A stretch of 64,000 nt of DNA. Source: Crossaster papposus. Taxonomy: Eukaryota; Echinodermata; Asteroidea; Velatida; Solasteridae. Shown in pieces: positions 17,701-46,740 of the stretch. Under the pieces are notes generated by a model, which saw only the letters and a program-made list of their open reading frames with translations, was not told where the DNA came from and did not search any database. A program made the translations under genes and the position numbers. Location of the stretch: the NCBI GenBank assembly GCA_037893245.1, contig JBAIAA010000415.1, positions 682,001-746,000 of the forward strand, in the 5' to 3' direction. Each line of letters starts with the position of its first letter. Position 1 is the stretch's first letter.

Positions 17701-20700
17701 AACTACATGTACAGTTTTAGGTGTAGAAGAAAAATCCAAGAATGATATTTGAGGAAAAACAAACAAAATCAGGCAAGCACTGAAAATTCAATCCATTGGC
17801 CCAGGCAGTATTCAAATAAGGGTCACAGCGGTGGAAGTACCACATGGTGTTATATAGAAGAAAATCTATGTTAGCACCTTTCTCTTGGTCATATTCATAC
17901 ACTTCCTATACATTTTATTGACACAATAAATATATTATAATTAACTGGACAGTTAAACAGGGGGCCCTATTAGTCCTGAAGGACTGGTTATGGAGGATTG
18001 ACCAGACACTCGGTGCAATTGTCCTCTCAACACCCGGAGGTATGTGGACCTGTGAAAATACCGGCGGGTCCCGGGCCCTTAAACTGCAAGGAAAATGGCC
18101 GGCCTTGCGGGACCCATTTAGACAGGGTGTCGGGGGGATCCTCCGTGGCCCGCCTTCCACGGGATTCTCCTGGGAAAACTGCCTAGAATCAATCTATCGT
18201 TATACTTCTATACAATAGTTCTTTCATTCTTTTGAAATGTTCTCATTCTTTTCCTATGTGATAATTGTTTCTTCCGTCTCCAAGTTTTTATATTCTACAC
18301 AGTTCACTTGATTGTTTTTTATTACTACCTATTGTCTTATATTTGTACACATTCCTGCCGTGAATATGGCCACTGATGCCGGCACGGCGTTAAACCTAAA
18401 ACTCACTTACTCACTCACTCACTCACTCTCTCGGTCATACTTTGCCAACGACACTGAAGTGTGTTCAAAACGCATGCCTGGTACTAGGGACGTGCTGCAC
18501 TAACATGGCGGCGACGTGGTGCGTGGTTTGCACTCGACCTGCGTACGATTAGCTATGAAAACGACGTAGTAACCGACTTCTTATGGCATTCAGACTGATC
18601 TATTATTGTAAAAGGGGTGTTTGGGATGCAAGAATTGAAGAAGAATTATTGTAAGTTGACATTGTTTCTGAGATAAAGCGACAATTATACAACATTTGAT
18701 TGATGACGTCACTGCCATGTAGTAATTATGCTGCGTTCCAATCACGTCGTGTTTATCGTGTTCACGAGTTCATGAGTCGTATAATGGCGTTCTAATCGCC
18801 TGTTAACTCATGTTCACCAGTGGTGAACTCGAGGTGGAATTTTTGTTCTCTATGTTCACGACTTCCTAACCGAATGGAATACTCGCGCATGCGTGTTGGT
18901 TCACGTACGTGTTCTCGTTCGGGAAATATCCTTACCGCACAGAAATTCACGGTGAACACGATAAACACGACGCGATTGGAACACAGCATTAAACAAAGCC
19001 AAAATGACCTTCGACTGGACAGCGCCCTCTTTTGTTTTTCAACAGACAATAGATTTTCAGTTTTAAGCAATCTGAACGACCGTGACCACTATGCCAACCT
19101 GATCTTCCAATAGAATAGAATAATTTAGCTCATTCATCATTTTAATAGTGTCAAGAAACGTATTTAAAAGAGGTTCTCAATCTGTGAATGTTCCTTTTTT
19201 TGTGTGACTGATTTTCTTGGTTTGTTGTGCAGGGCTGATGCCATGGTGCGTATTCAGCGCAGTCTTCGTACCGGCCAGCCTGGGGATTCCATCGCCCTAC
19301 TCCGTGCCGCTCGGGAGGTGTGGCCAGAGAATGACATCTTTGGGGCGGCAGACATCGGGCCCGAGGATGAATTCATGGCGCTCCGAGAAATCCACTTCAC
19401 AAACCTCAACGGTAAAAGCAAGAGGAAAATAGTTTCACCGTAACAACTCCTGAGAAAAAAAAGGGAAGGGTGGGGGTTGTGGATTCTGATTGGCATCTCA
19501 TGAGCAAACTTGTTGCCATTAAGAAAGCCCCAGCTAGGATAAAAATAATTCATGTCATCATCAAACCTTTATGAATTGAATATTTCACTTCAATTCGTTC
19601 AGTAAGCAGTTTATAGCAGCACCATTTGTGACCCGCTCTAGGAAAAGGTGCACTATGCATTTGTGTATAATGGCCCGCTCAACGTTAAGAGGATGACATT
19701 TCTTCATCAAAATTCCAATGTTTTGGGGGTCTTATTAATATCTAAACTTTCATGTTTAAATAACAACAAGGTTTATTTCGATAAAAGTCGTAAACAAATA
19801 CCTCTTAACCAGTTCGCGCCGGGATTATTTTAACATCACCGAGCCGAGTGGCGGGATTATTTTTAACAAAACTCGATCCGAAGCGGGTTCAGGCCGATAG
19901 TGCCGGGAAGCACGCCCACGCATTTCCGGCCTTACTCGCTGCTGACAGACTTTTCCGAACTTGAACTTGGCGTGTTTATGTGTTTATGTGTTTATGTGTT
20001 TACGTGTTTATGCGTCATCCGTTTTGAATTTGGGGAAAACTTTGCGTTTATAAACGTCATCCGTCGCGAACTGTTTGAGAGTGCACGGTTCCAATGTATT
20101 GTGTTAGTTTGGTTGTTTTTCGAAGCTCTTTTTCTCAGTTGTGTAATTTGAATTCCATAGGAGTTATTTATATGCAAAATGTCATATCACCGGAACGAGA
20201 GGGGCTATGGAGCTGTACTATGTACTGAATTAAAGCTTATAACCTGAACTTTTTACCCTGCGAGCTGCAAAGGTGCCCAGATGGGGGAACCACTTTTTTT
20301 TCTTTTTTTTAACTTTTGAATGAAGCTTTCGCCCAATTCCATTGAAACTACATGTAATCCTCAAGGGAACCTTGTGGTTTGAGATGGTATCATCGCTTTT
20401 CATGTAGGAGTTTAGTCGCAGTCAGCCGATCATAGGGAAGTTGGCCGTTCAGCCAAAGCCCATTTACTTGTGCACAAAATAAGTTCTTTGTTTTTTACCG
20501 CCTAGTTGACTTTGACCTCACAACAACATCATTAATCATGGCCCAGTGACAGCCGTTTAGAGAACTGCTGTTTATAATCACAGAAAAATCTTTAGTCTGT
20601 ATCAGGCCTTCATTTTAATAAATCTGAGGAGAGCTATGCATCGCTCTACTTAAATCAAAAGGTGAATTAAGGAGAGCGATTTTAAAATCGCTCTCTTTAA

Positions 20701-23700: not shown

Positions 23701-26700
23701 TCACGATTTGATTTGATTTGTTTTATACTAAAAACTGAATAAATCAATTTTATCTGATTGGTCAAAGCGTGACCAATGATAATTTGACCATACAATGGAA
23801 GTTATATTCACCGCTAAACATAACTTCAATGCACGTGATCAACGATCCACCAATCAGATGACGGGGATTTGTTTAGGTGTAATACTTTTTTTCTAAGAAA
23901 TATGTGACCTGGCACCACGAAATGAGCGGAAAGTCGCACATGGCCAAAACGGGTTATTGGTAGAAACGTAAATTTTTATAGCTCAATTAAAACTCTAAAA
24001 TAGGCTGAATTGCACTGAGTGATAGTATAGTTGGCACGGTTCATGGACTTTGAACTCCGTTTTCTCAAAACAAGGGAGCATGACTTCAGCAATTTCAGGA
24101 ATAAGCTACAGCCACGCACAATACATCATTTGAAAGCTTAGGACTTCTTCTTTCTAGAAATGTAATAATGTCAACTTTGATATTTTGTGACTTTCCACCC
24201 ATTACGTGGTGCCAGGTTACATATACCCTTTTGAAACTGAATTTGTTATGTCTGTCATATTTGATGTTGGAAACTTTTACATAATCAGGTATGCAACACT
24301 GATTTCTTTACACTAAATATACCGTTATAAACTGGGAAAAAAACCTGCTTAGAATTTTAATCGTCTTGAATTTCAAGACTCATCTTGAAATTCAAGCAAA
24401 TTTGGTCTTGAATGGATTCTTTAAAACAAATCAGTCTTTCACCTATTTTGTTGCAAGCCAAAAATTGGTGAAAAAACAGTGTGCAATGTTTAACTTATAG
24501 GTTCAGCCATCCAGAGGTAATCTGTTGCTATGTGCAGCTCCTTAAAGATTACCGTAGCAACTCGGCCCTCACCAACCACTGCATCGTCAAGATGCTGCAT
24601 CGCGTCTCCTGGGACTGCGACAAGACGGCTTTGCTCTTCCAAATCTCTCTCTTTAGGGTATTTCAGAAGATTGTGAACGACCCCATCGCATCAGCCACCA
24701 GTATGAAGGTATGAAAAGAGAATTTGACATTTGTAGTTTCTGTGTGATTTTTTTTTTGCAGAACAACTTTGATCCCAATGAGATGTATTAAATGATGCTT
24801 AATATGTAGAAATATTAGCCATAGTAATTTTATACAGTAAACTTATTTTTCCTCAAAGTCGGATAGCACGAATCTCTGCTTACCATAGAGTCGCGCATCA
24901 TTCCCGTCAAGAGACGTAGAGCATCTTGAGTACCAGTCTTGGTAGATATGTGCGCTATATGTGACTCGCTCTAGGAAAAGGTGACATATGTCGCAAACAC
25001 TAACAATAGAGTTATGTACATGATTGCAATGTCCAGGATATAAGTTTTCATTTGGTACATAGTACAGCTCCATAGCATTTTTGCATATTAATGGTTCCAT
25101 GGAATTCAAAATACACAACTGAGAAAACAGGCTTCGAAACACAACAAAACTAAGACAATACATTGGTACCATGCACTCCTAAAAAGTTTCGTTTTACTTT
25201 TGTTTATTGAATTCCTGCTTTTTGTTAATTAAATCTGAAACTTTGGATATTAAAGATGTTATTTAAGACAAAAAAATGAAAATCAAATTTTGACAAATAT
25301 ATATACCCTATTACTAACTTTAACAGGCCATTATTCATAAATGCATAGCGCTACTTACAGGTATGTCACTTTTTCCTGAAGTGGGTCACATATAAGAACT
25401 TGCCTATTGTTATTATTATTATTGAAAGTGTTTTGAATGACCTCACATCTATAAGACATGTATTCAAATGTGCCCGGCAGTATGGAGGGAAATATAGGGT
25501 ACCCTGTGGAGACTAGAGGCAGATTGGAACAATGTGAATAAATACATCTCCACAGGGTAGTTTCAACAAAACAGATATATGGATTGACCCAAAATAACTA
25601 TACAAACAAAGGTTAGGGTGTGGGTTAGTGTTTGGGTTAAGGTATAATATGTGACCGGCTCTACAAAAAGGTGTATTGTGTCGCAAAAAAAAGAAATTGA
25701 GTTATATACATGGTTAAAAAGCCCACAACGTAAGCTTTCATTTGGTATTTAATATAGCTCTACAGCCCCTCTCATTTTGGATATATGGTGTGTTTACATA
25801 TTGATTACTTCCTTGTAGTTCAAATTACACAACTGAGAAAACAGGCTTTGAAATAGCCAGTTCTGTTGTACTACAACAGAACGATGCACACAAAATGGTA
25901 GTTGTTTCTACTTTATTCATTAAAATCAACATTTTTTTTAATGAAACCTAAAATTGTAGGTATTAAAGATGTCATTCACATGTGACAAAAAATAAAAATC
26001 ACATTTTGATGAAATGTTTACCATCTCAACGTTAAGCGGGCCATTACATAATAGTGCACAGCGCGACTTAATACACCTTTTTGTAGAGCCAGTCACATAT
26101 AGAGTATATTGGGTCGATATTTCAACCCAGAAAATTAATTGTGGTCGAAATAGGAACGTGTAACCGTTTTTTTTACACGAGAACAAGGATACACAAATGC
26201 GAATGTTTGCGTACACATAGTGTTTGCCATAACAGTTGGTTAATGAATGACGCAGGTCAGATCGCAATAGATTTATGTGACATCTGATGTCATCTCTAAA
26301 CCAAATTCATGTAAAACACGATGTGTGCGCATACCGCCGGGCACATTTTGAATATAGATGTAAACAGAGCGAGGGTACATGGTCTGTAGTCCGCCCCTCG
26401 GGTTCAGGAAAATACAACACACTAATGTCAGTGTATACCAGGATAAAGCGATATCGATTTTCTTTCCCTCCCCACGCAGGAAACGGTGAAGTTTTCTAAG
26501 TTCATCGTGGGCAAGTTCTTCAAGATGGCGACCGCCAATCCCAAGATGTACATGGAGCTGTTGTTTTGGAAGGACGCCCGAGACCTGTTTGAGATCAGCG
26601 AAGGATACGGTGCGGTCATGGACAAAAAGTAGGTTGTCTCTCTGACGGTTCATAGTTTGGTCGTGGTCCTTGCTTCATCTTGGAAACTGTTCATGTAAAA

Positions 26701-29700
26701 AAGAAATTATACATGCATTACATACCATACCATACAGAAAAATAGTACGTTCTATTATATATTCGCATTTATGTTGCCCCTCACATGAACTCGATCACGA
26801 CACCCCCGTGTTAAAATGGTAGATTCTGGCCCCGTATATTATGCTAATGAGGTCACGTGGTGGAAAATGCAGCGTTCTGATTGGTCGTGAAGCCCCGAAA
26901 AATTGGCGGAATTACCTGGGCGGAGATTTTATCAAATGTTGTTTTTAATTAGAAGTCATTTTAACGATCTCGTTTAGCGTTAAACACTGAATCAGCAAAA
27001 AAAATTGTGGTTAAAAATCTACTTAAATTTTTGAAGTTTACTGCAGGCTGAAATATATGGGCAACATGTTCATTATTCTAAAACCACGCTACACGTTAAA
27101 GGTAGGATACACCATTTGCAGATATCGAAAGTTTTTACTATCGAATTATCAAGAAATATCTTACTTATTTGAAAGTAAATAATGATTGTAGGCATCCACC
27201 AAAATTATTGCGCTAGATATCCTTTAATTGCTCTGAAAAATTAAACTTTATAATTACGCCGGCGTTTTTGTTTCTATTTTGCTAATTTTCTTTGTTTTGT
27301 TCTTTTGCATAAAGATTTGTATGTCAACAGTAAAGATTTTGTGCTTCTCTGTAAATGCAGTTTGACAATGCAAACGCGCTGCTGTATAACAAATACAAAC
27401 AATTGGTTATTTCTCAGTTTATTTGAAAGACATTCTGAATATCGTGGGTTTTTTTAGGAGCAAGAAGACGTCAGTTGAGTGGCGGGAGGAGGAGCAACAT
27501 GAGTTGGCTCAGCTGTACGAGGAATACCAGGAGACAATCGAAGGAGGTTAGGGAATACCAATCGCTTCATCTTTGAATCCAATTCGGATGGGAAGGGTGG
27601 GGGGGGGGGGGGGGGGGCAGGCACAGGCAGGTATTATTTGGTCCGGTGCTCGACGCTTGTGTAGCTGCGTTCGGCTAAATAAGAACACTTCCAGAATGCT
27701 GATCATAGAATATTGTTTTCTTGAGAATACACAACACTTGCAGATAAAGCATCGTCAGGTTAGTTGTTGCTGCTTCAAACAATAAAAATGCACAACTGAC
27801 AAATGTGACTGGCTCTACAAAAAAAAGGGGAATTAAGTCGGGCTGTGCTTTATCATGTAATGGCCCACTCTATGTTGAGACGGTCCATTTTTTTCATTCA
27901 TTTTTTTGTCATGAGTGGTGGAATCTTTAATATCTACATTTTTAGGCTTCATTCACAGAAATGTTGATTTTGATTAATAAAGTTTAGGAAAAAAACGACC
28001 ATTTTGTGTGCATCGTTCTGTTGTTTTCCCAACAGAGCCAGCTATTTATATGTATATAACCATGTATATAACCATGTATATAACTGAAAGGTAGAATACA
28101 CCATTTGCAGGTATTGACAAAATTTACTACCGAATTATTAAGAAATATATTACTCATCTGAATGTAAATAATGATTCTAGGTACATGTATCCAGCAAAAT
28201 GATTGCACTAGATATCCGGTAATTATTCTGGAAAATAGAATTCTATAACAAAAAAATTGCCATCGCCTGACGGCGATCGCGAAAAAACACAAATAACATA
28301 AGAATAACTGCTCGACGCCGGTTGAAAACAAACGCTGTTTTTCGTGCTTTTCTCGGCAACCATGATTGTAAAACTTCGGAAAGGTCAGTCAAACGATATT
28401 TACTATAAAATGCAACCCCCTAAATCCACCCATTCATTATAATTCAAGCAATTACCAATGGTGTATCCTACCTTTAATTTTAAAATTTTTGTCGAGTGGG
28501 TCACAAATGGTATCCTGTCACTTTAATAGTCATTTGAATAGTGTTTCAGAACAGTCATTTGTGGAATGAATTAATTCTTCAATTTCTATTTCAGACAAGG
28601 ATGTTGTGGACCACATAATGGAACACATCATCGACGATAGCCGAACAAGGAGACAGGTAACATGTCAAGTTTACAAACCTTGATTCTAGACGGGTTCAGG
28701 CCGTCATCTGTGGGTAGCACAGCATGATATATGTGACCTGTCATCACAAAATGAGCGTAAAGTCGGCAAAATCAAAAATTGAGATATGAGTATTTCTAAA
28801 TTCTGTGGAAACAGAGCTTTCCAATGGTATATAACACTTGGAGGTTTGATACTCAATATTTATTTTTTTTTATTTTTTAGTCTGGAGTCTTAATATAGAA
28901 ATTATGAGAAAACGGGCATTTCTTGCGAGAAATTGTGTGAAAGGCATATAAAGGCATATTCAAAATTGTCTCAAAAACTAATTTTGGGAATTGATTGTTG
29001 GGGATTTAGTCTTAAAAAAAACCATATAATCTCAAAATCGACCACCCCTTCAAATTTTGACTTTGACTGGCCGTACTGGGAAATCACTCCGTGCGACTTT
29101 ATGCTAATTTTGTGATGACAGGTCACATCACATATTAGGCCTCGCTTGTTGCGTGTTTACCCGTCATCCGTTCCGAATACTGCAAAACCTTTGCGTGTAT
29201 ACATGTCATCTGACGCAAAGTGGTTAATACCTGTATCAATATTCATATATGGGTAGCACACCCTGATTTTCCGGCCTCGCTCGCTGCAAGCGGGTCGCTG
29301 ACAGATTTATCCAGCCTCGCTCGTTGCGTGTTTATCCGTCATTTGTTCCGATTATTGCAAAACCTTTGCGTGAATACATGTCATCGGACGCAAAGTGATT
29401 ATTGCCTGTATCAATCTCCATCTGTGGGTAGCACACCCTATTATTTCCGGCTCGCTCGTCGCGTGTTTATCCGTCGTCTTTCCGAATACCGCGAAACCTT
29501 TGAGAGTATACACGTCATCCGACGCGAAGTGGTTTAATACCTGTACCAATCTCCATCCTGATTTTGTCTTCTAAAGTCCTACTTTTTCCCGTTTTTCTTT
29601 TTTTTACACCGTTGTTTTTACTGAAAAGTCACAAAAGAAAAATTTCCTCTCTCCAAAAACAGACAGATTGGACATACATGTACATTTCAGTGAAGATATT

Positions 29701-32700
29701 TAAAATGGGGAAAGGGGAAAAATACCAAATATTCCAGATGTAGGGCAAGGTTTATATTGTTTAGAAATAAAACAGTTCCTGACAATGAAAAAAAGTATGA
29801 AGGTTGTTTATTTTTTGTTGATATTTTATAGATTATAACTCAGCTCCAGAGGCAAGGGATCATCGATAGTGCCGCTGACCTAAAACGAAGAAAGGGGTGA
29901 GAATGGATAACAGTGTTGTATTTGAGACTCTGCAAGTCCTTTCAAAAGTCTTTTCGCAAGTCCTTTCGCAAGTCCTTTCGCAAGTCCTTTCGCAAGTCCA
30001 GTCGCAAGTCCAGTCGCAAGTCCAGTCACAAGTCCAGTCGCAAGTCCAGTCACAAGTCCAGTCACAAGTCCAGTCACAAGTCCAGTCACAAGTCCAGTCA
30101 CAAGTCCAGTCACAAGTCCAGTCACAAGTCCAGTCACAAGTCCAGTCACAAGTCCAGTCACAAGTCCAGTCACAAGTCCAGTCACAAGTCCAGTCACAAG
30201 TCCAGTCACAAGTCCAGTCACAAGTCCAGTCACAAGTCCAGTCACAAGTCCAGTCACAAGTCCAGTCACAAGTCCAGTCACAAGTCCAGTCACAAGTCCA
30301 GTCACAAGTCCAGTCACAAGTCCAGTCACAAGTCCAGTCACAAGTCCAGTCACAAGTCCAGTCACAAGTCCAGTCACAAGTCCAGTCACAAGTCCAGTCA
30401 CAAGTCCAGTCACAAGTCCAGTCACAAGTCCAGTCACAAGTCCAGTCACAAGTCCAGTCACAAGTCCAGTCACAAGTCCAGTCACAAGTCCAGTCACAAG
30501 TCCAGTCACAAGTCCAGTCACAAGTCCAGTCACAAGTCCAGTCACAAGTCCAGTCACAAGTCCAGTCACAAGTCCAGTCACAAGTCCAGTCACAAGTCCA
30601 GTCACAAGTCCAGTCACAAGTCCAGTCACAAGTCCAGTCACAAGTCCAGTCACAAGTCCAGTCACAAGTCCAGTCACAAGTCCAGTCACAAGTCCAGTCA
30701 CAAGTCCAGTCACAAGTCCAGTCACAAGTCCAGTCACAAGTCCAGTCACAAGTCCAGTCACAAGTCCAGTCACAAGTCCAGTCACAAGTCCAGTCACAAG
30801 TCCAGTCACAAGTCCAGTCACAAGTCCAGTCACAAGTCCAGTCACAAGTCCAGTCACAAGTCCAGTCACAAGTCCAGTCACAAGTCCAGTCACAAGTCCA
30901 GTCACAAGTCCAGTCACAAGTCCAGTCACAAGTCCAGTCACAAGTCCAGTCACAAGTCCAGTCACAAGTCCAGTCACAAGTCCAGTCACAAGTCCAGTCA
31001 CAAGTCCAGTCACAAGTCCAGTCACAAGTCCAGTCACAAGTCCAGTCACAAGTCCAGTCACAAGTCCAGTCACAAGTCCAGTCACAAGTCCAGTCACAAG
31101 TCCTTTCATAAAGCCAGTCGCAAGTAACTGCATGTTGACCAATGACAAAGAATTGTCCTTGTTAGCGGTTCATTTCAATAGCTAGTGACTTAACTTGAGA
31201 TTGAAGGACTTGTAATAAACCTTATTCATGGGTCTGCCATCTTAAATTGAAAGTGGAGTAAAATCTTCATTTTTTGAACTTGCAAATAGAAATTAAAGTA
31301 ATGAAATAAAGTTAATTACAAATTAATACCAGTCAGCTACGGTTACAAATTTTGCGATTAATGATACGCACAAGTTTTAAGCCACATTTAAAGAAATAAA
31401 TTGAAAGCGAGAATTGGAACGCATACAAGTAAATAGTCTGGCACCATCTAATTTCAACTGTTTACAAGGCCTTATTTTGTCACGATGTCTCACGTGCGTG
31501 TGTGTAAACAAACAAAATAGTATATGGCGGTTGCCCGACTTTTGAAATTATAAGGCGCACGACTGTCGCGTAATAAAACGCGTTCATTGATTTGTGCGTG
31601 CATATAAATACGCGTGTCTTTAAATACGACGACATTATCGCACAACAAAATTGCGTAGGCCATATGTGATTCAGGGAGCACGATAAAAAAAATGGCTTCA
31701 CCGTGAATAAGGTGTATGAACTAATACAAGGACTCGAATACAACTCTGACTGATAAAACACTACAATGATAAAATGATTAACACAAATTCTACATAAAAC
31801 TCGCTCTGTACAATTGTATGTCTGTAATTTTTTAACATTTCTGATTGTGGAGTTTCATTCATTTTGATTGGTTGATATTTTTTTTGACAGAGCCAAGCGA
31901 GTTACCATTTGGCGGGAGGACCACGAGCTGGAGCTCCGTAATCTGTTTGAGCAACACAAGGGGTCTGACGGTAAGATGGTATCATTTTGCAGTGATCGGG
32001 AAAATATACAACTCTTTGTTGTTTTTTAATGAATATGTCGGAATTAGGACTATCGAGCCGTGGCACTGTTGTTGTTTTTTGGCTCAATGTGCCATCTCTT
32101 ATTGAGAAAAGGAATACTATGAGATTGCCGCACGTTGTTGACTTGTGATGATTTTAGAAGGTTTCTAGAAAACACTTTAATTTAGGAGTTTGAGTTCCAT
32201 ATGTAATCTTGATATCTAGAGCAGCCTATGATATACAAGGGTCGCTCTAAAAAGTATACCATTTTCAAATTTATATTATTGAAAAACTATTAAATAGTTC
32301 AGAAAAAGACAAAGTCTTTGCAAAGGGTAGAATGTCCTTTGTCCACTGGTATACGGTTCATTATGTCCTTGCCATGGATGACTGAACAAACAAGACATTT
32401 ATGAAAGGCACTAAAATCGGCACTGTGACAAGTTGGGATATAAAGTCGGGCGGGAATGACATGAGACCAAGATGCCAGCTATGCATTAACAGGAACGGTG
32501 GCCACTCACCTACCCACCTATCCATCTACCCATCTACCCATCTACCCACCCACCCACCTACCTACCCATTCACCCACACACCCACACAGTCATGTACGGA
32601 CCGGCAATCGTGGACGGGGCATTGTCCGACCGTCTTACCTCTTTTGATGACTGCCATAGGATTTGTACACGAGTTGAGATCGTGGACGTTGTGTCAATCG

Positions 32701-35700
32701 TGGACCCATTGTTTGCATCCCAATTCTTTTGTCAGACGACCACGATTGCCGGTCAATACAAACGCACAAACCCACTCACCCACCCACCCACCCACGCAGC
32801 TCTGTTTTGACCGGCAATCGTGGACGGGGTATTGTCCGACCGTCTTCCCTCTTTTGTTTATACTCTAACGTTTTTTGATGATCGCCATAGGATTTGTACA
32901 TGGGAAAAGATCGTGGACGTCGTGTCAATCGTGGACCCATTGTTTGAATCAATATTCTTTTGTCCGACGACCACGATTGCCGGTCAATACAAACGCACCC
33001 ATTCTTTTGGTACATTGCGTTATGGGGACAACCCATAGGGTTTGTGTGTAAACTGAAATCTCTCATTTCAAACTCAGAACACTCTAAAATTCTAAAATTT
33101 TCAGCATCACCCTAATTTGTCCTTTTCATTTTCTTTCATTATACCATAACCCAATTTTCCCTTGTTCTACCTTTACTGAAGACCCAACGCGCTATGGGGA
33201 CTCGAAAATGTCCCCACTACTCGGTCTGTCTTTTCCGAACAAAAGAGCCTGTTCCCATAACTAGGTGGAGGCTCGTACAGACCTTCGATCGTGGACCGGG
33301 CATTGTCCGACCGTAATTCCTCTTTTGTTTATACAAATCCATAGGATTTGCGCACGAGTCAAGATCGTGGTGGACCTTGTGTCAATCATGGACAGCATTG
33401 TTTCCCCAAAAATTCCTTTGTCCCCCGTCCACAATCAACGATGTTTACACACGCACCAACCCACCCACCAACCCACCCACCTTCCTATACCTTCCTACAT
33501 GTACCTTCCTACATGTACCTTCCTACATGTACCTACCTACCTACCTACATGTACCTACCTACCCACCTATATGTACCATCCCACCCACCCACCCACACAA
33601 GTGGGTAAATGCCGTCAATAGGGGACGGGGCATTGTCCGACCGTCTTCCCTCTTTTGTTTGTACTCTAACGTTTTCGGATGATCGCCATAGGATTTGCAC
33701 ACGAGTCTGAATCGGGGACCTTTGCGGAATAGGGGACCCCATTGTTCCCTTTGTCATACGTCCCCTATTTCAATCAAATACAAACGCACCCACCCACATA
33801 GCTTTACCTTACATACGTACTGTGGACATTCCTTTGTCTTCGTGTAGTTAAAAAACGTTGACTAAATACTCATTTTTCTCGCTTCCCTAAAACAAATTTA
33901 CCCTCAAATTTTGATTATGGGCCTCTCAGCTGTTCCTCCTATCTTTTCTGTATATAACCCTAACCCGTTTTTCCTCTAGCGCTCTTTTTCGGAAACTGAA
34001 AAATGGATTGTGGACCTGGGCAAGTGCACAAACCGTAACCTCTTCCCGCATCGTGTGGACCTATATTGTTCGGAGGTCCACAGTGCGTATGGAAGACTAA
34101 CTCACCCACCTACGTACATGTACATACCTACCCACCCACCTACCTATCTACCTACCTACCCATCTACATGTACCTACCTACCCATCTACATGTACCTACC
34201 TACCCATCTACCTACCTACCCATCTACCTACCTACCTACCTACCTACCCATCTACCTACCTACCTACCTACCCATCTACCTACCTACCTACCTACCCATC
34301 TACCCATCTACCCATCTACCCATCTACCCACCTTCCTACCTACCTACCTACGTACCTACCTACCTACACATCTACCCATCTACCCATCTTCCTACCTACC
34401 TACCTACCCATCTACCCATCTAACTAACTACCTACCTATCTACCCACCTTCCTACCTACCTATCTACCCATCTACCCATCTACCCACCTTCCTACCTACC
34501 TATCTACCCACTTGGCCATCTACCCATCTACCCATCTACCCATCTACCCATCTACCCATCTACCCATCTACCCTTCTACCCACCTACCCACCTACCCACA
34601 TAGCGATCAGAAGCCCATGGTTCATTCCACGCCGATGTAGGGAAAAAAAACCAGTAAACTGATATTGAGTTTTTGTTTGATTGCTCCAGACATTCTTGGC
34701 AACATCATGAACGGCATGGCGGAGAAACGCTCTAGGGCCAAAGTCATCGACAAGCTCCTGGGCCTGGGTTTAGTCCAAGACCGCAAGGAGCTGTACAAGA
34801 AACGAGGCAGCAAAGGAGGCAAGGCTGAGAGGAAGAGACGCGATCGCCGTGGAAACAGCGATGACGATGACGGAGACGATGATGATGATGGAGACGATGA
34901 TGATGATCACGGTGGTCTAGAAAATGTGGGTAGTTATGATTTTGATATAAAGCATTTCCCTTTCAAAGATTCATATTTTTTGTTTCTTTATACTTAGTGG
35001 ATGTGGAACCTTTACCTAACAACCTAACAATAAGCCAGTTCTGTATCCTGATGATATAGTCAAGGTCAAAGGTTATTTAGAATAAAATCAGTGATGTCAT
35101 ATTACACAATGTTAGGCAAACGCGTATTCTGATTGTAATTAACGTGTGTGCGTCGTGCAACCACCTGGCACTTCCATATGTATGAGAATGATATGCACAT
35201 ATGCAGTTTAAATCCCAAACTGTCTTATTCTTCATGATGTTTGTGAAGACAGTTTTTCAGAACCTAAACAGTAATTGGCGCTTATTAAAACTGCTGTCTT
35301 CATGTTATTTCCTATTCGAAATTGCCATTTCTCTAGCAAAACAGAAGTTAATCACTTTTGACTGAGACATCGACCTGAAGAAAAAGCCCTTAAGTTATTG
35401 AATTTTTACTTTTCACTTTTGAATTGTCGGATGCTAGACAATAATTCAGTTTCCAAGGAGTAGGCTGGTTCCCGCCCAAAATCGGTATCGATAATGTACG
35501 GACTGGAGGCCAGTCTGATCACAAAGCAAATCTGTTTGTGCCCAAAACAAAAACCTTTTTGTTTGCCCAAAACAAGAACTTTTTTTAAAGGTTTGCTGTA
35601 TTCATAAATTTAAGAAAAAGAAAAATTAAGTTGGACATTTATTAATTGTTAAACAAAATTGTAATTGTGGGAACAACACTTTGCCGGTCTGCAGAGTCAT

Positions 35701-38700
35701 TGTTGCATACTGGCTGATGATCCTTATCAACCGACTAATTCTGCAGCATTGTACACGAATAGTCTGCAGATGTTGTTGAAGCTTGCCTGAAAAATCTGAC
35801 TAAAGTTTGACCACTTTGTACTGTTTGGAATGATGATCGCGTGGATTTATTTTCATCATTGTGAATAGACTATGATATACAAAACATAAAAAAAACATCT
35901 ATTAACCCTAACTCCCTACCTCATTTTGTGTACACATACATGTAACCTGAATCTTGCAAAATTCTGCAATTCCAAAGTGTTGAAACTTCATGTAGCTTGA
36001 ATCCTGCAAAATCCTCAAATATTTATAGCTGGTGACCACTGCCTGAATCCTGCAAAATCCTGCAGTGGGTTTACCATGGAGCTATAAAGCAGCTAAATAT
36101 GGAACAAACACCTGCTAGCTATAAGTGCCCTATTACAACAAGGGTCTGCCCTGACATGACCCTTGGTATGCAAATGTTTCCAATCATTGACACATAACTT
36201 ACCGGTACATGTTGACTGAAGCTCTATAGAGAATGTGCATAGAGCATGAGCAGTGTAAGAGTACAAAGTATCAAATAACCTCTATCATTCAAAATCTTTA
36301 TTTGGGTTAAACTCCAAACGACCTCAATCCTCAAATTCCTCCGATGCATCAACTTCCAAGTGACCTAACTCCTGCGAAATCCTACAATTTGCAAAAAGGA
36401 TTTTGGAGGATTTGGGATGGTTAGAGTTCATGCCAAGTCATGTCTATGGCTTAAAAATAGAAATTGTTCGTCTCGCTGAAATAATGGCGTATAACATGTG
36501 CCGAATATCCTCAGTGGTTTAATGTGTGATAACTATCAGTGTAACCTCATTAACACTTCATCAAGGTTGTTTTGATGGGGCACGGAATTGAGAAAAAATA
36601 TTCACAGAATATCACAGACACCTTTGCTGTTGCAAATTTTTGGAGCAGCACTTGAGATACTTTACGCTTGTATTGACAAGGGTGATATGATATAAGTTGT
36701 TGTTTTGTTTTATTTCAGAAAAATTTCATTGATGATTTGGATGAAGAAGATGGGTTTGAAGGTAATTAGTTTAGTCTTTATATAGGGTGGCCAAAAACCA
36801 ACCCCGCCACCTCGTACTTCCATTACCCAGTGACCTAAACCATTGATGTATGGCCAGGAAATCTTGTTAGAAAGAAAATGATACCAAAAACAAGAACCAA
36901 CTTTTTGACCTACCGACCCTATTTTTAAAAGGCATGTAATCGGAACAGCATCTTTAATGTTGAGACACTACCTACAGCAGCTTCAATGATGAGGCACTAC
37001 CTACAGCATCTTCAATGCTGAGGCACTACCTACAGCATCTTCAATGCTGAGGCACTACCTACAGCATCTTCAATGTTGAGGCACTACCTACAGCATCTTC
37101 AATGTTGAGGCACTACCTACAGCATCTTCAATGTTGAGGCACTACCTACAGCATCTTCAATGTTGAGGCACTACCTACAGCATCTTCAATGTTGAGGCAC
37201 TACCTACAGCATCTTCAATGTTGAGGCACTACCTACATGTACATCATCTTGAATCTGGGACCTAAAAACATTTCCAATTTTGTTAGGAAATTTTCTCGAC
37301 TATCAATAGACACAACCGCTGTAGTGGCATCAGAATACTAGTCTTTCTCAGGACAATTTTATAGGGTATTTATAACTAGTCTAATCTTCACTTTAATTTG
37401 TTTTTTTGATTTGTTTTGGTTATATTTTGGTTAGGCTTCCTGGAACAGCACAAGCGAGATTCCAAGGATGCATCAGCATACGACAGCGAGACGGAAAGTG
37501 AATCGAGCTCTGCCTCAGGCGATGAGGCAAGGAGTGAGGAAGACGAGGTGGAAGGTACCGGGGAGGGGGATAACCTGGACAGTCTCATCAAGAAGTTGCA
37601 GGAGAAAGGTTAGTTAGCAGGGTTATTTCAGAGTGAACCGAGCGCTGCCTCAGGCGATGAGGCAAGCAGTGAGGAAGATGAGGCGGAAGGTAACAGGGAG
37701 GGGGATAACCTTGACAGTTTCATCAAGGATGTTGCAGGAGAAAGGTTAGTTAGAAGTGTTATTTTAGAGTGAATGGAGCACTGCCTCAGGCGATGAGACA
37801 TGCAGTGAGGAAGATGAGGCAGAAGGTACCAGGGAGGGTGATAACCTGGACAGTTTCATCAAGGATGTTGCAGGAGAAAGGTTAGTTAGGAGTGTTGTTT
37901 CAGAGTGAATCGAGCGTTGTCTCAGGTTATAAGACATGTAGTGAGGAAGATGAGGCGGAAGGTACCAGGGATGGGGATAACCTGGACAGACTCATCAAGA
38001 AGTTGCAGGAGAAAAATGTGTAAAATTTGACTGTGGACTGATGAGACTTGCACGTTGTACATCATTTGAAGTGAAAGTCATTTGAATAAGTTCCGTCTTT
38101 TTTTAATGTATTTCCTTTTACATGTAGGCTTGAAAGAGCAGATTCTCTGGATTCAGAATGGATTGAGAAGCACAGCCGATGACCGAGAAAAAGACGGTAA
38201 GGCTATATTGTGAAGCAACCAAGCAAAATGAGCTTCAAGTCGACCCTGGTCATTTTTGATCTTTTTATATTTTTATTTGAAGGGAGCGTTAAGCTTTAAT
38301 GTGGTGAAAACCCCATGTTGATTCAAACTTGAGGTTCAAAAGGTACGACATGTTAAGTAGTGACACATTGAAAAGAAGAAAATCACACTGACAGTTACAG
38401 TATTAAGTTGTTGAAAAGCACACTTTTGAAACCTGACAGAACAAAGTCCTTAGCTTTGGTACAAGGTATGGCAATGAAACTTAGAATGTTTATAGAACAG
38501 TACATAAAGAAAAACACTGCGTCAAATACCGACATTTCTGGACATTTCTGGACATTTCTGGACATTTCTGGGCCGATAATAAAACTCAGGATTGATAAAT
38601 CACTTTTTTGACCTGTTCCCTTTTCTAATTTTGAATATTCTGGCCCATATCTCAAAACGGGAATTCCTGACTTCCGACTGATTTCGCTGAATCGCATCAC

Positions 38701-41700
38701 ATTATTTGCATCACATTATTTGCTATGTTTCCCATTGCTTCAGTAACCAAAACATCGTCAGAAAGCTACATTAAAACACACGCCTCTGTAAAATAGTGAT
38801 GCTTGACGAACTGTTTGTTGGTAGAGCACAAGTCGGGCATTCTAGAGGTTAAGGTCCGAATCCTGGCTTGGTTAGGTTTTTTTTTCTATTAGCTCTAACT
38901 CCCTGGCCAGTAAAAAATCGTATCGAATATTAAAGATTCCGGACTGATAGCGTTAAAGGCACATATTTACCCCGAGTTAGTTCTTCTTCAGTGTAATTCA
39001 TTTTGATTATAGGAATAACATTTTTCCTGGATTTCTTTTTCTTTAGAAGATGAACAGGCAATACCCGTCGTGCCACTCTCTGAGGAGAATGGAGATGCCA
39101 TGGACAGCAAGCTCTTCCAGCGAATGCTTAAAACTGTTGGAATTTCTCCACCCAATGGACATGAGGTAGATAGATTTTCCAACCCAAAAAGTCTTCTAAA
39201 GGACTGGAGTCTTAAAGATGTCATTTTGATGTGTTAATACATTTTAATTTTATGAGAACAGACCCCTTTTCTTTTAAAATCGCGTATAATTACCTTTTAG
39301 TTGAAATTCGTTTAAGATTTTCTGAAGTACATAGTCACATTTTTAAGATACTAGCCCTTTGGTAATTTTGTTCTAAGATATGGATTCCTGTTCAGAAGAT
39401 GCATCTTTACAGTTTGTAATATTGATTTCCCTGCCAGAATTATTCTCCACACAATATACTTAACTGTGTCGTGGATTCAAAATAAATGACAGATAAACAC
39501 GTCACGAGAAAAGTCGGAAATATCTTTTAGCGACTGGCTCGCAGCGAGCGAAGCCGGGAATATCAGGGGGAATGCTACCCACAGATGGCACCCTGAACTC
39601 GCCTCAAATCGAGATTTGTGAAAAAAATATTCCGCGCCTGTGCCCGGTCAATGTTAAAATAATCCCGGTGCAAACTGGTTATGCGAATTTGCGACCTCAC
39701 AGCAAGTTTTCGTGCTACGAATTTGCAAAAGTTGAACACATTTCAACTCTGACGATTTATTTTGCAGTGCATGCTTTGTGACGCCAAATTCATATCGCAT
39801 TCACTTTCGCGTGAAGTATGAAACAGCTTTTGGTGCTTTGTAAAAGGGTGTGGCTTGCCTCACAACCTTCAATCTCCTGAAAAGTACACACAACTTAGAT
39901 CATTAGCATCCAAGTGATCAGATTGTTGAATTACAGGAAAAGACAAAGGTCACTTTAATTTAACAGCATTGTGAACATTTGGGAGAGTGTCACGTTGTCA
40001 ATCCACACTCACAGGGTTGGTTGTTTATATCCTTCCCCAAGGAAACTTTCTGGCGCATACCAAGCCACCTGGACCCCGGGCGGCTCCGAGAGATGGCGAA
40101 CTCGATCCAGCCTCAAGACGGGGTGGCGGAATCGGCCGCCGTGCGGAAAAAGAAGTCCAACCCCAAGTACAAGGCGCTGAAGGAGATGGCAAGACAGCGG
40201 AGGCAAGAGAAGAAAGCACCCAAGGAACGAGGAAAGAAGAGGGGGAGGAGGGAGCGTGGTCGAGAGGACGTTCCTGTCACCGAGGTGATCAGCCAGGTCA
40301 TGGATGAGGAACGATTGCCGACGGAGATGGCACAAGGCGAGGCGAGTCATTTCGATGACGGAGGCGCGACAAGGGAGAAGGTGTCACCTAGGTCTGGTCA
40401 GAGGAGAAGTCGGGTCAAGCGAGCCCTGCAGAGTGATTCGTCTGATAACGAAAGGTAACTTGTTAAAGCCATACTTCTCGCGAATACAAAGAAAATTTGT
40501 GGTCAAGAAGCATCCGCTGTGAAAATTTGCAGGAGTTGAAATGTGTTCAACCTTTGCAAAGTGAAAACTCGCCGTGACGTCACAAATTCACATTTGCTGA
40601 ACCGACTTTTGCTAGAAGATTTTATTTATTAACCCGTTTTATTCATCATTGAAATTTGAGCAGAATTTCGCACCAAAGAAAGTTCACTTCAAATGGAAGA
40701 TTTCGCCGAGTTTCTTCCAAACTTTCTGTCTCAAAATCACTACTCATTGACATTCACTCGAAGTAAAAAAACAAAATTGCTTTGTTATTGATGTAAATTT
40801 GTATGGATACTTTCCTTTGGGTCGCACTTTTGGCTGGTTTTTTTTTCCCTTGACATAAAGAATGCATTGCACTCAAGTGTCAAGTCTCTCAATAATTACG
40901 ATGCGTCCCTGGCTATACATACTTGTACGTAGCTGGCGAGGATGGGATACTTTTGACGCCGCGGCGGCCGGTCGAGTTGGCAATGATTTCGTATAGCGCA
41001 ATGGAACCATAAGGTGTACACGTACGTACGTATGTGCATGGACGAATCACGCATACAAGTACATACACATCAATACGGACAGTGCCCTAGCCATAGAGCG
41101 CGCGAATGCGCCAAGCGTGCATAAATAACCTTTGACACGACTGTACTGCGAATCTTTCCCACAGCTGTTCATGGAAATCGTGCATGCCATGCCCCACCGC
41201 TCTCTACCGATATTTGGAGTTTGTATACTTGGCACGAGGTTGTCACTGCCAATGATTATGGCGTCGCACTTGTTGCAGTCTGATCGTTGCTGTCCTGAGA
41301 CCAGCCACGCTTTTAGGATTGTAGGTTTAAAATAAACAATACAAGTATGTGTACATTGTTTTTGATACAATTTAACTTTCATCTGATTTTGTTTTTAACT
41401 TGGATTGATCATCAGCAACATGAATAACATTGCTAGTAATACTCAGTTCAGCACACATGTAAAATGTTGAAAAGTACGACTTTGGGGGGAGGGGGGGGGG
41501 GAGAGTTCTTGAAAAGTAGTACTCTCTGTACGACCTTAAAATTGTTGAAAACTTTGGACAGCCCCTTACACGAGCAGCACTCTTTTAAATCACTGTCCAA
41601 AAATGTTCAGTTCTAATCTTACAAAGTGTAACATACCTTCTTAAACTTTTATTACAATTCACAGTATTGTTGAGTCGACTCCATTGGACAATCCGGTTAC

Positions 41701-46020: not shown

Positions 46021-46411
46021 CCCATAATGACTATTTAGTTGGTACATGTACATACTGCTAGGTTTATTCGCTGCATTAAATTGTCTCGTGTTTGGCCGTG
46101 ATTTGAGTACCCATTAACTACCATAGTGGCAGCGTCAGAAACGTTTCCCGTGAACGCATTTTCGGCTCAAAAAGTCAGGGGAAAGTGGCCAGGAAATGCC
46201 TCAGATTGCACCACAAAGCATCGTAAGAGCTTCGCGCTCCGCGCTCGCAGTCTCTGCACCCCCCCCCCCCATAAAAAAAATTAAAAAAAACCACAACATG
46301 TTGTCCCAGTAATTATTTTGCCCCCCCCCCCCCTTTATACAAATCCTCGATCCGCCCCTAATAATAAACTATGAATCAGAATCAGTGTCAAAAAGATCGG
46401 ACGTGTATTTA

Positions 46412-46740
46412 CAACTCGGATGCTTTCCTAATTCGGATGTATTCCTAATTCGGATGTATTCCTAATTCGGATGCTTTTTGCAAACTCGGATGCTTTTCTA
46501 ATTCGGATGAATTCGTAATTCGGATACTTTTTGTAAACTCGGATGCTTTTCTAGTTCGGATGCTTTTTGTAATCTCGAATGGTTTTTTTCTTCGAATGCT
46601 TTTCTAGTTCAGATGCTTTTTATAAACTCGGATGCTTTTTTAATTCGAATGCTTTTCGAGTTTGAATGCTTTTTGTAAACTCGGATGCTTTTTGCAAACC
46701 GAACATATTCGCAACTCGGATGCTTTCCCAATCCGGCACT
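46412..46740 (+). repeat. Degenerate ~20-bp tandem repeat (CGGATGCTTTT...AATT)
   Basis: About fifteen units of CGGATGCTTTTCTAATT or CGGATGCTTTTTGTAAACT. The right end merges into the left arm of the inverted repeat at 46696-46890. Confidence 0.85.

Follow-up and report, generated by a model that had tools for sequence, protein, structure and literature searches.

A 12-bp minisatellite with a letter-identical core in a TIMELESS intron of Crossaster papposus

Introduction

What does a kilobase of almost perfectly repeated DNA do inside a gene, and how did it come to be there? The question is raised by a tract of 12-bp units in a contig of Crossaster papposus (JBAIAA010000415.1, positions 682,001 to 746,000; these 64,000 nucleotides are referred to as the window). 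A sequence-only reading had assigned the tract to an intron of TIMELESS, explained it by one CpG deamination followed by rapid amplification of the mutated unit, and considered both an effect on splicing and an obstacle to DNA replication. Here, these proposals are weighed against the anatomy of the tract, its host gene and its predicted structure.

Results and Discussion

Extent and uniformity of the array

Read unit by unit, the tract comprised 99 head-to-tail units of 12 bp on the forward strand (29932-31119). The unit ACAAGTCCAGTC made up 88 of the 99, and 87 of these followed each other letter for letter (1,044 bp). Tandem Repeats Finder placed the array at 29932-31107 with period 12 (98.0 copies, 98% matches) and, with periods 24 and 36, at 29957-31125. 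The array is divided as follows:

29932..30051, + strand: left edge; 10 units, nine of them variant (GCAAGTCCTTTC, AAAAGTCTTTTC, GCAAGTCCAGTC) and one ACAAGTCCAGTC
30052..31095, + strand: core; 87 × ACAAGTCCAGTC, by Tandem Repeats Finder and the unit listing
31096..31119, + strand: right edge; ACAAGTCCTTTC, then the degenerate unit ATAAAGCCAGTC

From 29932 onward, the order of units was one GCAAGTCCTTTC, one AAAAGTCTTTTC (also degenerate), three GCAAGTCCTTTC, three GCAAGTCCAGTC, one ACAAGTCCAGTC, one GCAAGTCCAGTC, the 87 ACAAGTCCAGTC of the core, one ACAAGTCCTTTC and one ATAAAGCCAGTC. A partial unit, GCAAGTAACTGC, followed at 31120-31131; its first seven bases match the unit. The earlier count of about 99 copies, identical over ~1 kb, was thus accurate, and the unit given with it, CACAAGTCCAGT, is a rotation of ACAAGTCCAGTC.

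The longest perfect period-12 run amounted to 1,051 consecutive matches, compared with no more than 10 when the window was shuffled 20 times under a first-order Markov model. Both this run, far above shuffle level, and the 99 head-to-tail units of 12 bp identify the tract as a minisatellite, a class defined by units of at least 7 bp in the excerpted text of Eslami Rasekh et al (2021; PMC8096271). Among the arrays listed in the window, it was the longest and had the longest perfect period-12 stretch; some arrays elsewhere in the window were also 100% matched, all much shorter. On both strands of the window, the 11-mers CAAGTCCAGTC and CAAGTCCTTTC did not occur outside the array.

The edges differed from the core in two ways. 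At the left end, 8 of 10 units began with G, and 7 of 10 formed a CG (unit 1 is preceded by T). At the right end, units 98 and 99 carried CA, and CG appeared in partial unit 100 only. The statement that edge units carry CG where the core carries CA therefore applies to most units of the left edge and fails for the complete units of the right. A second variant, with TTTC replacing AGTC, was present at both the left and the right edge and had gone unmentioned.

The host gene and the array-bearing intron

Thirteen exons, bordered by GT and AG and consistent in phase, were read by hand between 14334 and 34925, from the equivalent of human residue 437 onward. Their conceptual translation (563 amino acids) matched human TIMELESS residues 437-954 (7pfo_K, E 1.2e-144) and the solved TIMELESS constructs 6taz_B (E 2e-31) and 6t9q_A (E 8.5e-19); a Pfam search of this fragment returned no family at E up to 0.01. 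Judged by its predicted product, the host gene is TIMELESS, in agreement with the previous assignment. An open stretch at 39019-39234 matched human TIMELESS residues 1040-1077 (7pfo, E 1.9e-06; 4xht, a PARP1-binding-domain construct, E 1.3e-07), so the gene extends at least that far. Upstream of the 13 exons, more TIMELESS-like stretches were recognized by eye. The features around the array are the following (a slash marks the exon border):

29832..29896, + strand: TIMELESS exon before the array; 65 bp, ATAG acceptor, GT donor, in frame with the exons on either side
29897..31890, + strand: array-bearing intron; phase 2, 1,994 bp, donor GGG/GTGAGA, acceptor TTTTTTGACAG/AGCC
31891..31970, + strand: next TIMELESS exon; 80 bp, 26 residues, opens the C-terminal Myb-like half
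34690..34925, + strand: TIMELESS exon finishing the C-terminal Myb-like half; 3′ end placed by eye

The exon before the array encodes 21 residues and two bases of a glycine codon. It is covered by the matches to 7pfo_K and 6taz_B and forms the end of the N-terminal Myb-like half, which bears out the claim that it encodes part of the DNA-binding region. The split glycine aligns with human Gly884 (counted on the 7pfo_K alignment), and the match to 6t9q_A, a structure of the C-terminal domain, begins at query residue 461. According to the excerpted source (PMC7506991), the region of human Gly884 is a flexible linker that joins one Myb-like half of the DNA-binding domain to the other. As the intron splits this linker codon, the array separates the exons for one half from those for the other. 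With the donor GT at 29897 and the first unit at 29932, the array starts 35 bp inside the intron, exactly as had been stated. The length of the intron is within the range of the 11 other TIMELESS introns measured (829 to 2,719 bp; the first, 1,511 bp).

Age and origin of the array

Not a single difference was found in the 1,044 bp of the core, which, assuming independent divergence of the units, limits change to 0.29% per site (95% bound). This indicates that the array was expanded or homogenised recently, and it is in this sense that its description as recent can be upheld. A uniform centre with diverged edges, the gradient seen here, is what slippage and unequal exchange are expected to leave. 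Slippage, unequal crossover and gene conversion are also named as processes of VNTR growth in the excerpted text of Eslami Rasekh et al (2021; PMC8096271). The tract is best read, with a probability of roughly 0.85, as an ordinary intronic minisatellite in which one derivative unit was recently expanded or homogenised and which most likely lacks a function. In the TIMELESS intron, a short array of 12-bp units of the G type (GCAAGTCCTTTC / GCAAGTCCAGTC) would have formed first; the derivative unit ACAAGTCCAGTC would then have multiplied and been kept uniform by replication slippage together with unequal exchange or gene conversion, and older, diverged units would have stayed behind at both edges. 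The array was analysed in a single haplotype, and the support for expansion, homogenisation and neutrality is indirect. By analogy, the length of its alleles is probably variable.

An alternative, considered unlikely, is that assembly or polishing accounts in part for the copy number or for the perfect uniformity; the locus would then carry an array whose true length or mixture of units differs. A series of 87 letter-identical units is unusually uniform, and consensus polishing of a tandem array can yield such uniformity. However, a degenerate unit and single-base variants (A, G, then A) were retained at the edges, so the tract was not flattened throughout.

Because the outermost units begin with G on both sides, G is probably ancestral and the A of the core derived. 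The A at unit 9 precedes a G unit, and A is also found on the TTTC background at unit 98. This interspersion, and the occurrence of A on both the AGTC and the TTTC background, calls for two or more changes, or else for units to have exchanged sequence. The observed/expected ratio of CpG was 1.20 in the rest of the array intron (800 bp) and 0.89 in the window minus the array; CpG-poor 2-kb bins were present in the gene region (0.51 at 24001, 0.53 at 34001 and 0.37 at 36001). As the remainder of the intron is not CpG-poor and some bins of the gene region are, the base composition permits deamination without calling for it; as the source of the core A it is plausible. Thus, of the proposed history of one CpG deamination followed by one amplification, the ancestral state probably holds, but the interspersed A and G units and the right-edge unit combining A with TTTC need more than these two events.

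Splicing of the flanking exons

Splice sites were scored with a simple consensus, not with a trained predictor. The 191 GT sites of the array matched 3-5 of 9 donor-consensus positions, compared with 6-8 in the 13 donors of the gene. Most AG sites of the array (184/191) were preceded by 7-8 pyrimidines in 16 positions, whereas the real TIMELESS acceptors (n = 13) had 9-15; the other seven AG sites, with 9-11, reached into that range. The donor before the array, GGGGTGAGA, scored 6 of 9, the low end for this gene and a score shared by 5 of the 13 donors.

In human ABCA7, the length of the intron-18 VNTR correlates with the skipping of exon 19, longer alleles showing more of it (De Roeck et al, 2018; PMC5954066, as excerpted). 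By analogy, the length of the TIMELESS array might modulate the splicing of its flanking exons, which would be favoured by its position only 35 bp past the donor, by the low-end score of that donor and by the seven pyrimidine-richer AG sites. Unlike in ABCA7, the array excludes the donor site, since the GT at 29897 precedes the first unit. Together with the poor scores of its internal GT sites and of nearly all of its AG sites, and with an intron length that is ordinary for TIMELESS, this makes modulation of splicing improbable, and the earlier suggestion of an effect on the preceding exon gained no support. Given lengths of 65 and 80 bp, skipping of either flanking exon would shift the frame, and intron retention would meet an in-frame stop at TGA 29898-29900, directly after the donor. 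Mis-splicing, if it occurred, would thus disrupt the protein from the C-terminal Myb-like half onward.

A coding role of the array was considered and rejected. The frame of the gene runs into the same TGA before reaching the array, and the internal splice-like sites are mostly poor. The core is free of stops in all three forward frames, which follows from 12 being a multiple of 3.

Predicted structure and replication

The sequence-only reading had called the array a hard-to-copy tract. The folding energy of its DNA at 37°C was 0 (sense) and −6.1 (antisense) kcal/mol per 300 nt, as opposed to −115.8 for (CTG)100, −63.2 for (CAG)100, −38.2 for (CCG)100 and −212.6 for (CGG)100 in a similar calculation; one of 60 random 300-nt windows was as weak as −6.1. 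Relative to its own dinucleotide shuffles, the array was better folded (antisense DNA, z −5.6; sense RNA, z −37.2) because the repeat forms a long, weak ladder; the energies are still very small. Neither strand contained a GGG run, and no G-quadruplex motif was present by the GGG pattern. There were 98 GG runs on the antisense strand, and the longest purine or pyrimidine run was 7. With weak folds, no GGG and runs this short, the array does not qualify as a hairpin, G-quadruplex or triplex former, and the claim that it is hard to copy was not borne out. (GAA)n and (TTC)n repeats can form triplexes, and (GAA)100 and (TTC)100 likewise score 0 (with RNA parameters), so low folding energy alone can neither exclude every obstacle nor prove easy copying.

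The array could be imagined as an obstacle to the replication fork that feeds back on the role of TIMELESS in fork protection and at G-quadruplexes. This model is highly improbable: it is prompted by no more than the coincidence of gene and repeat, and the weak DNA folds and the missing GGG runs, motifs and long purine or pyrimidine runs all argue against it. On its side are the GG runs of the antisense strand, an antisense RNA with the folding energy of average sequence (−73.8 kcal/mol per 300 nt) and the binding of G-quadruplex DNA by a domain of human TIMELESS (PMC7506991, as excerpted).

The sense RNA of the array was unusually unstructured, at −9.4 kcal/mol per 300 nt, whereas 60 segments drawn at random from the same sequence ranged from −40.5 to −126.5. 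Given this property and about 90 near-identical 12-nt sites, the transcribed array may, in a model that we regard as very unlikely, gather one RNA-binding protein before the intron decays; it would thereby serve as a sponge tunable by length, or time the splicing of TIMELESS at the point where the two halves of its DNA-binding domain are joined.

Mobile elements and occurrence elsewhere

In a scan of 29560-31900, two inverted pairs spanned the core. One (29946-29965/31204-31223; 20 nt, 75%) has its left arm inside the array; the other (29911-29926/31733-31748; 16 nt, 88%) flanks it and is weak. Both were taken to be at chance level, by judgement rather than by a shuffled control, and an origin of the array as a mobile element was rejected on these grounds. 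The weak flanking pair does count against the plain minisatellite reading, and a mobile-element frame is held to be unlikely rather than impossible. Within the window, the downstream flank (31126-31890) had no second copy. A query with the upstream flank (29480-29931) gave matches in its first 78 bp only, to the 29139-29458 repeat and to 20035-20076. The array intron also contains an imperfect pair of inverted repeats (31215-31243/31689-31717; 29 nt, 76% complementary, 445 bp apart), which may mark the termini of a small transposon-like element.

A 20-base stretch of the array occurred in one contig (L001) of the viral_contigs collection, in which the repeat finder detected no array, and this match was ascribed to chance. 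A 24-base stretch had no match in genome_contigs, a collection of bacteria and archaea that says little about animals. The literature search found no title on an array within a TIMELESS gene.

Comparison with known repeats

The closest published case found, judged from the excerpted text, is the human ABCA7 intron-18 VNTR (De Roeck et al, 2018; PMC5954066). Each is a minisatellite of a multi-exon gene and occupies the donor end of its intron. According to the same text, the ABCA7 VNTR is a C-rich region of ∼12 to 427 units per allele; its 25-bp unit supplies the GT of the donor site with its first two bases, and its units vary slightly, whereas those of the TIMELESS core are letter-identical. 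The TIMELESS array has a 12-bp unit, begins 35 bp into the intron and contains no strong donor-like site. With human minisatellite VNTRs it shares a unit of at least 7 bp, the association with a gene and the proposed growth processes; as excerpted, the human loci genotyped had to fit, with their flanks, inside one read, and the TIMELESS array measures 1.19 kb with a letter-perfect core (Eslami Rasekh et al, 2021; PMC8096271). Being intronic, of mixed composition and weakly structured, the TIMELESS array is unlike the dodecamer repeat of CSTB (progressive myoclonus epilepsy type 1). The latter is strongly GC-rich. It likewise has a 12-bp unit able to expand, and it lies in the promoter, according to the excerpted source (PMC9655992).

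The TIMELESS array is therefore of an ordinary kind and an unusually uniform example of it, and most likely it has no function. What is notable about this gene-embedded minisatellite is its uniformity and its location, with the exon of one domain half on either side. Possible uses are as a marker of length and as an example in which to study how perfect arrays arise; greater importance would come only with a demonstration that allele length alters TIMELESS splicing.

Other tandem arrays in the gene region

Besides the 12-bp array, four tandem arrays were located between TIMELESS exons, and one lay beyond the exons that were read:

29139-29458: 175-bp repeat; 1.8 copies, upstream of the exon preceding the 12-bp array
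34121-34598: extended, imperfect array of (TACC)n type, one intron downstream of the 12-bp array
36945-37237: 29-bp repeat; 10.1 copies, 97% matches
37497-38014: 136-bp repeat; 3.8 copies, 89% matches
46404-46699: array of ∼17-bp units (TCGGATGCTTTTCTAAT), in which 34-36, 53 and 89 bp also appear as longer periods; past the TIMELESS exons read

The presence of several arrays between the exons indicates that this stretch is generally array-rich and that array growth is locally common. A partial match to the 175-bp repeat lies just downstream of it (29480-29556), where a 42-bp stretch fits 20035-20076 at 81%. ACCTACC/CACC tracts at 32502-32585 and 33450-33589 are related to the (TACC)n-type array. 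The first copy of the 136-bp repeat (37410-37610) is perhaps a TIMELESS exon, judging from its position and a reading by eye; a search for solved relatives, at E up to 0.1, was negative. The repeat includes a portion of an exon-like reading frame of acidic character (30 residues), with donor-like GAAAG/GTTAGTTAG at 37609, 37745 and 37881 and, in copies 2-4, acceptor-like ends in which TTTCAG or TTTTAG precedes AGTGAA. Perhaps it represents a tandemly multiplied exon, the copies of which might be spliced in varying number.
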